Assembly (NCBI GenBank): GCA_022826005.1
Contig: JAJDVT010000141.1
Coordinates: 124,001-188,000 of the forward strand
Source of the DNA: Gemmatimonadota bacterium
GTDB lineage: Bacteria; Gemmatimonadota; Gemmatimonadetes; Longimicrobiales; Gaopeijiaceae
DNA length: 64,000 nucleotides
Direction of reading: 5' to 3'
The translations under genes were made by a program, and so were the position numbers. Below the pieces are notes generated by a model. The model searched no databases. It saw nothing but the letters and a program-made list of their open reading frames with translations, and was not told the DNA's origin. The number at the start of each line of letters is the position of its first letter. The first letter of the stretch is position 1. This document shows positions 22,988 to 28,712 of this stretch, piece by piece.

Positions 22988-23060
<73 letters not shown>

Positions 23061-23137
23061 CTGTAGTCAGGTTCAGCCGCGGCGCATCGCCGCTTGAAAC
23101 AGGGGGCGACGGCCGCAGCCGCGCCCCCCTTCGTATC

Positions 23138-23209
<72 letters not shown>

Positions 23210-23227
23210 CTCTTCATGGATTGGCAC

Positions 23228-23950
23228 ATGGCCTACATCCCATACACGCCACGCTCCGAAGCGGGGCCGGAACTCTCGGCGCTCTACGCCCGCTACACCG
23301 ACGCCGGCGGCGATGTCGACAACATCCTGCGCATCCATTCCCTGGATCCGCCGTCCATGGAGCACCACTACCGGCTCTACAGGCATCTGATGGCCGGCCC
23401 CTCCCCGCTGTCGAGAGCGCAGCGCGAGATGGTCGCGGTCGTGGTGTCCGCCGAGAATGACTGCTTCTACTGAATCAACCACCACGGGGCGGGACTCCGT
23501 CGGCTTGCGGGAACGCGGACGCTCGGCGACGCGCTGGCCAGGGGCCGTCGGCCGGAGTCGCTGGGTGCGGGGGATCGGGCGATGCTGGACTACGCGGTCA
23601 AGCTTACCCGTCACCCGGGCGGGATGACGGCGGATGACACGGGCGCGCTGCGCGCGGCCGGCTTCGATGACCGGGCGATCCTCGACATCTGCCAGATCGT
23701 GGCCTACTACAACTATGTCAACCGGCTCGCCGACGGGCTCGGGGTGGAGCTGGAGGCCGGGTGGCGGGATGGGGAGCTCACCTTGACGCGGCGGGAGTTC
23801 GAAGCGCAGCGGGGGGTCCGGTGCCGGGGCGTGGTGGCCGGGCGAAGGAGTGCGGCGGCCGGGCGAGCGGACGCTGGCGCCGGGCAGCAGGGTGCAGAGG
23901 CGCGGGCCGGCGCTGTTGAGCAACCGCGCACCGGGGGGGAGAGGCCGTGA
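23228..23950 (+). CDS. AhpD-like peroxidase-related protein with probable selenocysteine (CxxU)
   Basis: The frame is open from 23228 to 23950 except for one TGA at 23471-23473. Both sides of the TGA belong to one family: the carboxymuconolactone decarboxylase/AhpD-like 'peroxidase-related enzyme'. Upstream reads S-R-A-Q-R-E-M-V-A-V-V-V-S-A-E-N-D-C-F-Y; downstream reads I-N-H-H-G-A-G-L-R-R and later A-V-K-L-T-R-H-P and V-N-R-L-A-D-G-L-G-V-E-L-E. In relatives the TGA position is the second cysteine of the redox motif CxxCxxxH; here it is Cys79-F-Y-(TGA82)-I-N-H-H. Replacement of exactly the catalytic Cys, plus a hairpin at SECIS distance, argues for selenocysteine rather than a nonsense mutation. 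Read through, it is 240 residues. The 3' end overlaps hutH. An upstream ATG at 23216 is also possible. Confidence 0.75.
23484..23500 (+). promoter_or_regulatory. Candidate SECIS hairpin downstream of the in-frame UGA
   Basis: ACGGGG at 23484-23489 pairs with CTCCGT at 23495-23500 (one G-U pair), enclosing loop CGGGA. The loop begins 16 bases after the UGA, and has G residues at its start, as in bacterial SECIS elements recognised by SelB. The stem is short and needs structural testing. Confidence 0.5.
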
Positions 23951-25464
23951 TAGCGATCAGCGGCGAGGGGCTCACGCTGGAGCAGATCGAGGCGGTGGCG
24001 CGCGGCGCCCCGGCCATGCATGGCGGCACCGAGGTGCGGCTCGACGGCGAGGCAGCCCGCAAGATGCACCGCTCCCGAACCGCGCTCGAGCGCCTCAAGG
24101 CGGGTGACTTGCCCGTGTACGGATTGAACACCGGGTTCGGGCGGCTTGCCGACGTACGCATCGCCCGTGAGGCGCAGCGGGAGCTCCAGCGCAACATGGT
24201 GAGGAGCCACGCGGCGGGGGCGGGGGCCGCGCTTCCCGCCGAGGTGGTGCGCGCAATCCTGCTGCTCAGGGCCAACGCGCTGGCTCGGGGCCAGTCGGGG
24301 TGCCGGCCGGTGGTGGTCGAGCGGCTCCTGGAGCTGCTCAACCACGGGATTCACCCGGTCGTGCCGGAGCTCGGTTCGGTGGGGGCGAGCGGGGATCTGG
24401 CGCCGCTGGCCCACGTCGCGCTCGCGCTGATGGGAGAGGGTAGGGCCGAAGCAGGCGGCGAGGAGCGCGATGCCGGGGAACTCCTCGCCGCGGCCGGGGT
24501 TGCGCCGCTGGAGCTGGCCGAGAAGGAGGGGCTGGCGCTGGTGAACGGGACCCAGGCCGTGACGGGGATCGGGGTCCTGGCCGCACAGCGCTTCGGGCGC
24601 GCCCTGGACACGGCGGACGTGGCCGGTGCGATTTCGCTGGAGGGGCTGCGGGGGACGCCGAGGCCATTCCGCGCGGAGATCCACGCCGCGCGGCCGCATC
24701 CCGGGCAGATTGCCAGCGCGCGGCGGCTGCGGGAGCTCCTTGCCGGATCGGACATCCGCGAATCGCACCGGGCGGGGGATCCGCGCGTGCAGGACGCCTA
24801 CTCGCTTCGCTGCATGCCACAGGTGCACGGCGCGGCTCGCGAGGCCCACGCCTACGCGCACCGGATCCTCGCCACCGAGGCGAATTCGACCACCGACAAT
24901 CCCCTCGTGCTGCCGGAGGGGGACCTCGTCCTCAGCGGCGGCAACTTCCACGCGCAGGTCGTCGCCCAGTGCCTCGACCTCGTCGCGATCGCGGCGGCGG
25001 ATCTGGCCGCCATCTCGGAGCGGCGCATCGACCGCCTCCTCAACCCCGACCTCTCCGGCCTCCCCGCCTTCCTCTCCCCCGCACCCGGCATTCGCTCGGG
25101 GATGATGATCGCGCAGGTCACCGCCGCGGACGCCCTGGCCGAAATGCGCGTACTTGCGGGTCCCGCGAGCATCGATTCCGTTTCCACGAGCGCGTCGCAG
25201 GAGGATCACGTGTCGATGGGCATGGCCTGCGCCAGGAAGGTCCGCCGGAGCGTCGCGCTGCTGGAGACGGTGCTGGCGGCGGAGATCCTCTGCGGGGTGC
25301 AGGCGGTCGAGTTCCACCGTCCCCTGCGCGCCGGCGCCGGGGTGGAGCGGGCGCTGGCGGAGGTTCGGGCCCGGGTGCCGCGCTTGGACCGGGACCGGCA
25401 GCTGGCGGGCGACCTTGCGGCCGTGCTGGAGCTGGTCGCCTCCGGCGCGCTGTGCAACCCGTGA
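23947..25464 (+). CDS. hutH: Histidine ammonia-lyase
   Basis: Converts L-histidine to trans-urocanate and ammonia. 505 residues with the cofactor-forming triad Ala147-Ser148-Gly149 in S-V-G-A-S-G-D-L-A-P-L, Y-G-L-N-T-G-F-G near 58-65, and the C-terminal H-V-S-M-G active-site loop. GTG start at 23947 overlaps the upstream stop codon. First gene of the hut set, followed 68 bases later by hutU. Confidence 0.97.
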   Translation: MIAISGEGLTLEQIEAVARGAPAMHGGTEVRLDGEAARKMHRSRTALERLKAGDLPVYGLNTGFGRLADVRIAREAQRELQRNMVRSHAAGAGAALPAEVVRAILLLRANALARGQSGCRPVVVERLLELLNHGIHPVVPELGSVGASGDLAPLAHVALALMGEGRAEAGGEERDAGELLAAAGVAPLELAEKEGLALVNGTQAVTGIGVLAAQRFGRALDTADVAGAISLEGLRGTPRPFRAEIHAARPHPGQIASARRLRELLAGSDIRESHRAGDPRVQDAYSLRCMPQVHGAAREAHAYAHRILATEANSTTDNPLVLPEGDLVLSGGNFHAQVVAQCLDLVAIAAADLAAISERRIDRLLNPDLSGLPAFLSPAPGIRSGMMIAQVTAADALAEMRVLAGPASIDSVSTSASQEDHVSMGMACARKVRRSVALLETVLAAEILCGVQAVEFHRPLRAGAGVERALAEVRARVPRLDRDRQLAGDLAAVLELVASGALCNP

Positions 25465-25532: not shown

Positions 25533-27254
<1,722 letters not shown>

Positions 27255-27311: not shown

Positions 27312-28712
27312 TCAACGCCCTCCTGGCTGAATCAGCCCATCGACTGCCGCCGCATAGCCGCGCGCGGCCCCCTCCTCGCACATGTGGCGTCTGTCCCTCA
27401 CCACCCAGTCCCCCGCCACCATCACGTCCCGCACCGGGCTCTCGGTTCCCGAGAACACCCACGAATCGAGCACGGCGTGACCCCTTCGCCCGGCGAGCGC
27501 GGGGTGGCCGGCGTCGAGCACCGCCAGATCGGCGCGTCTGCCCACCGCCACCGTCCCGCCGTCCCATGCCAGCGCCCGGCACCCGTTCTCCCAGGCGTGC
27601 GCGAGCAAGGCCCCGCCTGCACCGGCCAGCGCACCGTTGCGCGTCCGGTCCGGGCCGGTCCGCGGCACCGATCGTGCCCGCGCGGCGAGCCGCTGCCCGT
27701 AGTCGAGCAGGCGCAGCTCCTCGACCGGGCTCCTCGAGACGTGGCTGTCCGTCCCGATCCCGAACCGTCCCCCGGCGCGGACCAGGGCTCCGAGCGGGAA
27801 CAGCCCATCCCCCAGGTTGGCCTCGGTCGTCGGGCACAGCCCCACCACCGCACCGCGCGCCGCCACGGCCGCCGCCTCCGCCCCGGTCATGTGCGTCGCG
27901 TGCACGAGGCACCACCCCTGGTCGACCGGCGCGTGGTCCAGCAGCCACTGCACCGGGCGGGCGCCGCGCTGCGCCAGACATTCCCGCACCTCCCGCTCCT
28001 GCTCCGCGACGTGGATGTGCATGGGGGAGCCCGCCGCACAAGGGTTTTCGAAGATGCGCCGGAAGGTCGCCGGGCGGACCGCGCGCACGCTGTGCAGCGC
28101 CAGGCCGAGGCCACAGCCGGCACCGCCGCAGACATCGGCGAGATCCGCGCGGATCCGCAAGGCCTCGTCGAGGTCGAGCCGGAAGCGCCGCTGGCTCCCC
28201 GTGAGGGGTTCGCCTCCGAGCCCCGCATTCTCGTAGACGACCGGCATGTGCACGAGACCGATCCCGGCCTTCTCCGCCGCCCGCACGATCCTGCGGCTCA
28301 TCTCCGCCGGGTCCGCGTAGCGGCCGCCCCCCGGGGGGTGGTGGAGGTAGTGGAACTCGCCCACGCAGGTGAAACCCGCCTTTAGCAGCTCGACATACAG
28401 CTGCAGCGCGATCGCCTCCACCTCGTCCGGGCCCGGCAGCGCCGCGAGCCGGTACATGACCTCTCGCCAGCTCCAGAATGAGTCCGGCCCGTCCGCCTCG
28501 GCCAGGCCTGCGAGGGCGCGCTGGAAGGCGTGGCTGTGCAGGTTCGGGACTCCGGGCACCGTCCAACCGCAAACCTGCTCGCAGGCGGCGTCCGGGCTCC
28601 CGGGGGACAGCGACGCGATCCGGCCCGCCGCGTCGACTTCCATCCGCACGTCGGGCTCCCACCTGTCGCCGACCAGGAGTGCTTCGAAGCGGAAGGCGGG
28701 CGGTGGCGGCAC
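27312..28712 (-). CDS. hutF: Formimidoylglutamate deiminase
   Basis: Converts N-formimidoyl-L-glutamate to N-formyl-L-glutamate plus ammonia, the alternative lower branch of histidine breakdown. 466-residue amidohydrolase: metal ligands in N-L-H-S-H-A-F-Q, later M-H-I-H-V-A-E-Q, H-A-T-H and G-T-D-S-H-V-S. The signature L-A-E-A-D-G-P-D-S-F-W-S-W-R-E matches HutF rather than guanine or hydroxydechloroatrazine deaminases. It is transcribed against hutH/hutU and divergently from hutI. The N-formylglutamate deformylase needed next (HutG) is not in the window. Confidence 0.93.
   Translation of the reverse strand: MPPPPAFRFEALLVGDRWEPDVRMEVDAAGRIASLSPGSPDAACEQVCGWTVPGVPNLHSHAFQRALAGLAEADGPDSFWSWREVMYRLAALPGPDEVEAIALQLYVELLKAGFTCVGEFHYLHHPPGGGRYADPAEMSRRIVRAAEKAGIGLVHMPVVYENAGLGGEPLTGSQRRFRLDLDEALRIRADLADVCGGAGCGLGLALHSVRAVRPATFRRIFENPCAAGSPMHIHVAEQEREVRECLAQRGARPVQWLLDHAPVDQGWCLVHATHMTGAEAAAVAARGAVVGLCPTTEANLGDGLFPLGALVRAGGRFGIGTDSHVSRSPVEELRLLDYGQRLAARARSVPRTGPDRTRNGALAGAGGALLAHAWENGCRALAWDGGTVAVGRRADLAVLDAGHPALAGRRGHAVLDSWVFSGTESPVRDVMVAGDWVVRDRRHMCEEGAARGYAAAVDGLIQPGGR

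Follow-up and report, generated by a model that had tools for sequence, protein, structure and literature searches.

Bacterial AhpD-like selenoproteins are a described group, as the sequence-only reading of this locus had noted. Those of TIGR01926, which carry a CxxU motif, come from the Sargasso Sea study of 2005 (PMC1088965), appear as the GOS 'AhpD-like 1' proteins of COG2128 (PMC2398784), and are included in a 2026 review (PMC13188914); selenium use by this protein family is therefore already known. The same review gives the rules for a bacterial SECIS (bSECIS) element as a loop of 3–9 nt, a stem of 4–16 bp, a G in the first two loop positions, and a distance from the UGA of 16–37 nt. Among the Cys enzymes, PA0269 has a five-residue relay made up of Glu36, Cys48, Tyr50, Cys51, and His55 (PMC3141380).

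The gene described here lies in a window of 64,000 nucleotides, the whole stretch of DNA analysed, from a Gemmatimonadota MAG of 4.85 Mb in 143 contigs. The features of the window to which the text refers are:

22988–23061, tRNA-Gly(GCC), preceding tRNA-Cys(GCA), the two occurring side by side only in close relatives
23138–23210, forward strand, tRNA-Cys(GCA), ending 17 nt before the AhpD-like start codon and kept only by close relatives
23228–23950, forward strand, gene for an AhpD-like selenoprotein of 240 aa (Sec at residue 82), based on TIGR01926 (1.7e-41), PDB 3c1l (2.4e-32), the start, and dN/dS
23426–23428, forward strand, codon for E67, invariant, equivalent by its spacing (PMC3141380) to Glu118 of M. 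tuberculosis AhpD and Glu36 of PA0269
23462–23464, forward strand, codon for C79, the partner Cys of the CxxU pair
23471–23473, forward strand, UGA codon read as selenocysteine (U82), being TGA or Cys in all aligned homologues
23483–23485, forward strand, codon for H86, invariant, equivalent by its spacing (PMC3141380) to His137 of M. tuberculosis AhpD and His55 of PA0269
23484–23500, forward strand, apical bSECIS hairpin, stem ACGGGG/CUCCGU and loop CGGGA (23490–23494), based on synonymous freeze, pairing, and class-wide occurrence
23947–25464, forward strand, hutH, histidine ammonia-lyase (TIGR01225, 641 bits, cut-off 539)
25533–27254, forward strand, hutU, urocanate hydratase, next downstream of hutH (TIGR01228, 933 bits)
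27312–28712, opposite strand, hutF

The two tRNA genes were considered as part of the selenoprotein system, and this was ruled out by their retention in close relatives only.

Read as open reading frames, 23228–23950 is one frame in which the TGA at codon 82 is the sole internal stop, and the protein around it reads ...ENDCFY-U-INHHGAGL.... It had been proposed from the sequence that this one TGA interrupts an otherwise continuous family match at the second Cys of a CxxCxxxH motif, and this is indeed the case. With read-through of the TGA, residues 9–173 match TIGR01926 ('peroxidase-related enzyme') at 141.9 bits (cut-off 81.8) and the motif is C79-F-Y-U82-I-N-H-H86, which means that both halves belong to one member of the family. 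Pfam CMD is also matched by the read-through protein. The conserved domain covers approximately residues 4–175, and the remainder is a variable low-complexity tail. The start codon at 23228 is the one retained in most relatives. Ordinary gene calling truncates the product at 81 aa, as anticipated, or at 85 aa if the alternative upstream ATG at 23216 is taken as the start. Proteins 73–87% identical to this one are found in 'Gemmatimonadetes bacterium' MAGs, and the gene is conserved across the Gemmatimonadota.

The AhpD catalytic relay of Glu, a Cys/Sec pair, and His is present as E67, C79, U82, and H86. In an alignment of 40 homologues, in which column numbering begins at residue 4, five columns are invariant, among them E67, U82, and H86, and C79 is conserved in at least 90%. 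The Glu-x11-Cys-x-Tyr-Cys-x3-His spacing of PA0269 (PMC3141380) is shared, with E36, C48, Y50, C51, and H55 corresponding to E67, C79, Y81, U82, and H86. However, both PA0269 and M. tuberculosis AhpD have Cys where Sec is predicted here, and the overall identity is low (approximately 26% to PA0269). An AlphaFold2 model, with Sec entered as Cys, has a mean pLDDT of 95.6, and the closest solved structure is that of Mlr4105 (PDB 3c1l), a putative antioxidant defense protein of approximately 37% identity (TM approximately 0.9), which differs in being a Cys enzyme with CYYC. The protein is thus likely to have the all-helical CMD/AhpD fold. In the CxxCxxxH centre, Sec would occupy the position of the second Cys and form a pair with C79, assisted by E67, Y81, and H86, and the predicted activity is for this reason likely to be that of a thiol/selenol peroxidase or of disulfide exchange. 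Family membership would likewise point to a peroxidase or thiol/selenol exchange role.

Homologues were sampled from 59 related genomes at E values up to 1e-15, and 36 of these genomes have them. Wherever the Sec site is alignable in the related genomes its codon is TGA or TGC, to which wider sampling added one TGT; there is nothing else at this position. A sense codon other than Cys in relatives, or decay of the half after the TGA, had been put forward as evidence that would count against a selenoprotein, and neither was seen. A contig scan with an active-site pattern that required a Cys codon returned only 5 loci, partly because of that requirement.

A lone TGA in one MAG could look like this if it were a nonsense change in a former Cys gene, or a sequencing or assembly error, TGC to TGA being a change of a single base. 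However, the same codon is TGA in dozens of genomes that were assembled independently, as well as in two lineages of paralogues, the codons of the hairpin described below are frozen, and purifying selection acts on the part downstream of the TGA. Comparison of the window gene with seven relatives gives a dN/dS of 0.13–0.29 before the UGA and 0.11–0.24 after it; selection is equally strong on either side, which indicates that the second half is translated and useful. This conservation, together with the dN/dS values, refutes a pseudogene or sequencing error, which retains a negligible probability.

The host genome has two paralogues on other contigs (L002, G000:C77; L003, G000:C50), which also have CFYU. 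These represent a second group of AhpD-like selenoprotein genes (CFYU-E/TQAH), whose SECIS is of another form, its loop being 24 nt after the UGA; this group is present in another family of the class as well (L116). Distant homologues in relatives from the same order (L084, L085, L087) have TGA at the site within the variant motifs GGAAU, which lacks the first Cys, NQCVFU, and NECPFU. Their placement in the tree is unsure due to long branches.

The distribution of selA follows that of the TGA form. By our own count, selA is matched in 31 out of 32 related genomes with the TGA form, the match in G039 being partial. The exception, G024, is an assembly that is 88% complete in 830 contigs, and the absence of selA is most simply explained by this incompleteness. 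Four genomes have only non-TGA homologues (G023, G042, G054, G058), one of which has selA. In 16 more distant genomes, all 15 with selA carry a homologue with an in-frame TGA (the site was checked in 14, G161 excepted), and the only one without selA, G181, has TGT (Cys) and a degraded hairpin. The Cys forms require two changes in a tree of 54 sequences, and that of G181 is nested inside the Sec clade which, with selA gone, fits a Sec-to-Cys change accompanying loss of the pathway. This is a clear natural experiment: where selA has been lost, the codon is one for Cys and the hairpin has gone.

It had been suggested that selA, selB, selD, and tRNA-Sec be sought in the same genome, and all four are present: selA (483 bits, 6.6e-145); selB (297 bits, over the cut-off, profile positions 2–345, in an open frame of 751 codons); tRNA-Sec (77.9 bits, anticodon TCA, that is UCA); and selD (9.5e-113). 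The selD gene has its own in-frame TGA within the GAGUACK site and, after this, a GC-rich inverted repeat (L021, G000:C71), and its product is therefore probably also a selenoprotein. The cell's own SelB and tRNA-Sec(UCA) would then insert selenocysteine at the UGA of codon 82.

UGA is reassigned in some other bacteria, and the codon might be decoded as Trp or Gly in this way, or as Cys through near-cognate suppression. In this genome, however, UGA serves as an ordinary stop, for example at the ends of the AhpD-like gene and of selB, which indicates that the genetic code is not reassigned, and what the relatives have in its place at codon 82 is Cys and neither Trp nor Gly. These two observations rule out codon reassignment and, with tRNA-Sec(UCA) and selA, selB, and selD present, decoding as a residue other than Sec is exceedingly unlikely.

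The sequence-only reading had placed a hairpin loop 16 bases past the TGA and considered its geometry to be that of a bacterial SECIS. The hairpin at 23484–23500 does have its loop starting at 23490, 16 nt after the UGA, and its 5 nt loop, 6 bp stem, and spacing are within the rules of PMC13188914. In group A, the lineage of the window gene, the UGA is followed by ACGGRG-CGGGN-CUCCGY with the loop at 16 nt; group B (CFYU-TQAH) has GACCUC-CGGGCC-GAGGUC there, and a spacing of 24 nt to the loop. Both satisfy the published stem, loop, G-position, and spacing rules.

In group A, the hairpin codons show 0.39 of the expected synonymous diversity and codons elsewhere 0.89; the corresponding values for group B are 0.28 and 0.85 (p about 0.002 in both cases, taken over codon columns and not over sequences, as related sequences are not independent). 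The stem Leu is CTC in 25 out of 25 group B sequences, with most other Leu columns dominated by CTG. In the group A hairpin, 96.7% of cells are paired, versus at most 54% when the position is slid. A compensatory double change, from C-G to U-A, is seen in two divergent group B sequences. No double compensatory change was found in the group A hairpin, where changes are one-sided only and preserve the pair, and where the bottom A-U pair is lost in some sequences. The TGA forms in other families of the class retain the group A hairpin. In the case of the Cys forms L051 and L052, the Leu codon is CTG and the group A hairpin is gone.

Thermodynamic stability is unusable as proof of a SECIS in this G+C-rich DNA, the folding energy of the hairpin region being no better than that of shuffled sequence (z of -0.06 to +1.13). 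The hairpin alone has -6.4 kcal/mol, where a bSECIS is expected at or below -7.5 kcal/mol, and the whole region has -10.6 to -16.0, with the best fold varying with the cut points. Since folding energy is uninformative, the reality of the hairpin rests on the comparative evidence, according to which a bSECIS just 3' of the codon would direct decoding at the UGA.

The first interpretation, that this is a genuine selenoprotein gene, is strongly supported by these computational observations, from which insertion of Sec at residue 82 is inferred; every computational check proposed with that interpretation turned out in its favour. The best explanation overall, which we hold to be very nearly certain, is of an AhpD-like (TIGR01926) Sec protein with SECIS-directed decoding, a redox role, and possible coupling to hutH.

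The GTG start of hutH overlaps the TGA stop of the AhpD-like gene by 4 nt (GTGA). One bacterial family (f1) has 29 group A loci with readable downstream sequence, and hutH comes directly after the gene in 28 of them, the sole exception being L035, from a genome with no hutH match. A 4 nt overlap, ATGA, GTGA, or TTGA, is present in 24 loci by our own count, despite a part after the UGA that ranges from about 114 to 158 residues. This fixed order and the stop/start overlap make translational coupling plausible, and would suggest that Sec read-through feeds the translation of histidine ammonia-lyase, in that ribosomes finishing the selenoprotein may pass to hutH, whose product is the first enzyme of histidine breakdown.

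Such coupling might go as far as a selenium-sensitive switch, in which read-through delivers translation to hutH, while low selenium leads to a stop at codon 82 and less hutH. This would add to the selenoprotein explanation rather than exclude it. The position of hutH and the overlaps kept at varying length agree with a switch, as does the lack of an obvious Shine-Dalgarno sequence, as judged by eye, at many hutH starts. However, stop/start overlaps are common in bacterial operons, there are purine-rich Shine-Dalgarno-like stretches at the hutH of the window and that of L024, the f1 loci L113–L115 end in TAG with no overlap, the layout is absent outside the family, and, in the set of 59 relatives, 7 f1 genomes carry hutH with no AhpD-like selenoprotein gene. 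A switch is on balance doubtful; if there is one, Sec insertion would be needed for efficient hutH translation and selenium supply would control histidine catabolism in this Gemmatimonadota family.

In the loci examined outside family f1, no hutH was found downstream of the AhpD-like gene, and the linkage is therefore not a general trait of the protein family. In G014, a remnant matching residues 162–195 is present just upstream of hutH (L093, 1262–1363) with no intact copy, which suggests that the selenoprotein gene was lost by internal deletion. In G011, hutH comes directly after a tRNA-Cys-like stretch, and the hutH matches in G020 and G008 each have one internal TGA, which may be the stop of the gene with the match extending past it. 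In the open-licence literature, nothing was found on hutH with alkylhydroperoxidase, and no title or abstract links histidine ammonia-lyase and a selenoprotein. The fixed place before hutH raises a concrete and testable link between selenium and histidine use.

The Gemmatimonadota, a phylum that the text of PMC13188914 does not name, gain a selenoprotein that is well documented, SECIS elements included, in two groups of paralogues, and whose genes standard gene calling would split in two. The related profile NF041238 (AhpD_rel_CFYUT, alkylhydroperoxidase-related (seleno)protein) shares the CFYU motif and a homologous AhpD-type domain, but membership was rejected at 56.7 and 48.6 bits, below the equivalog cut-off of 175, with the 56.7-bit match covering profile positions 151–339 of 357 only. 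It is the known AhpD-like CxxU selenoproteins of TIGR01926 that the window copy resembles, in scoring over the cut-off, in its CxxU with Sec at the second redox position, in the SECIS just downstream, and in having Cys homologues. It differs from these in its variable C-terminal tail and in an end that overlaps hutH, and what is new is that the gene is fixed upstream of hutH within one bacterial family.
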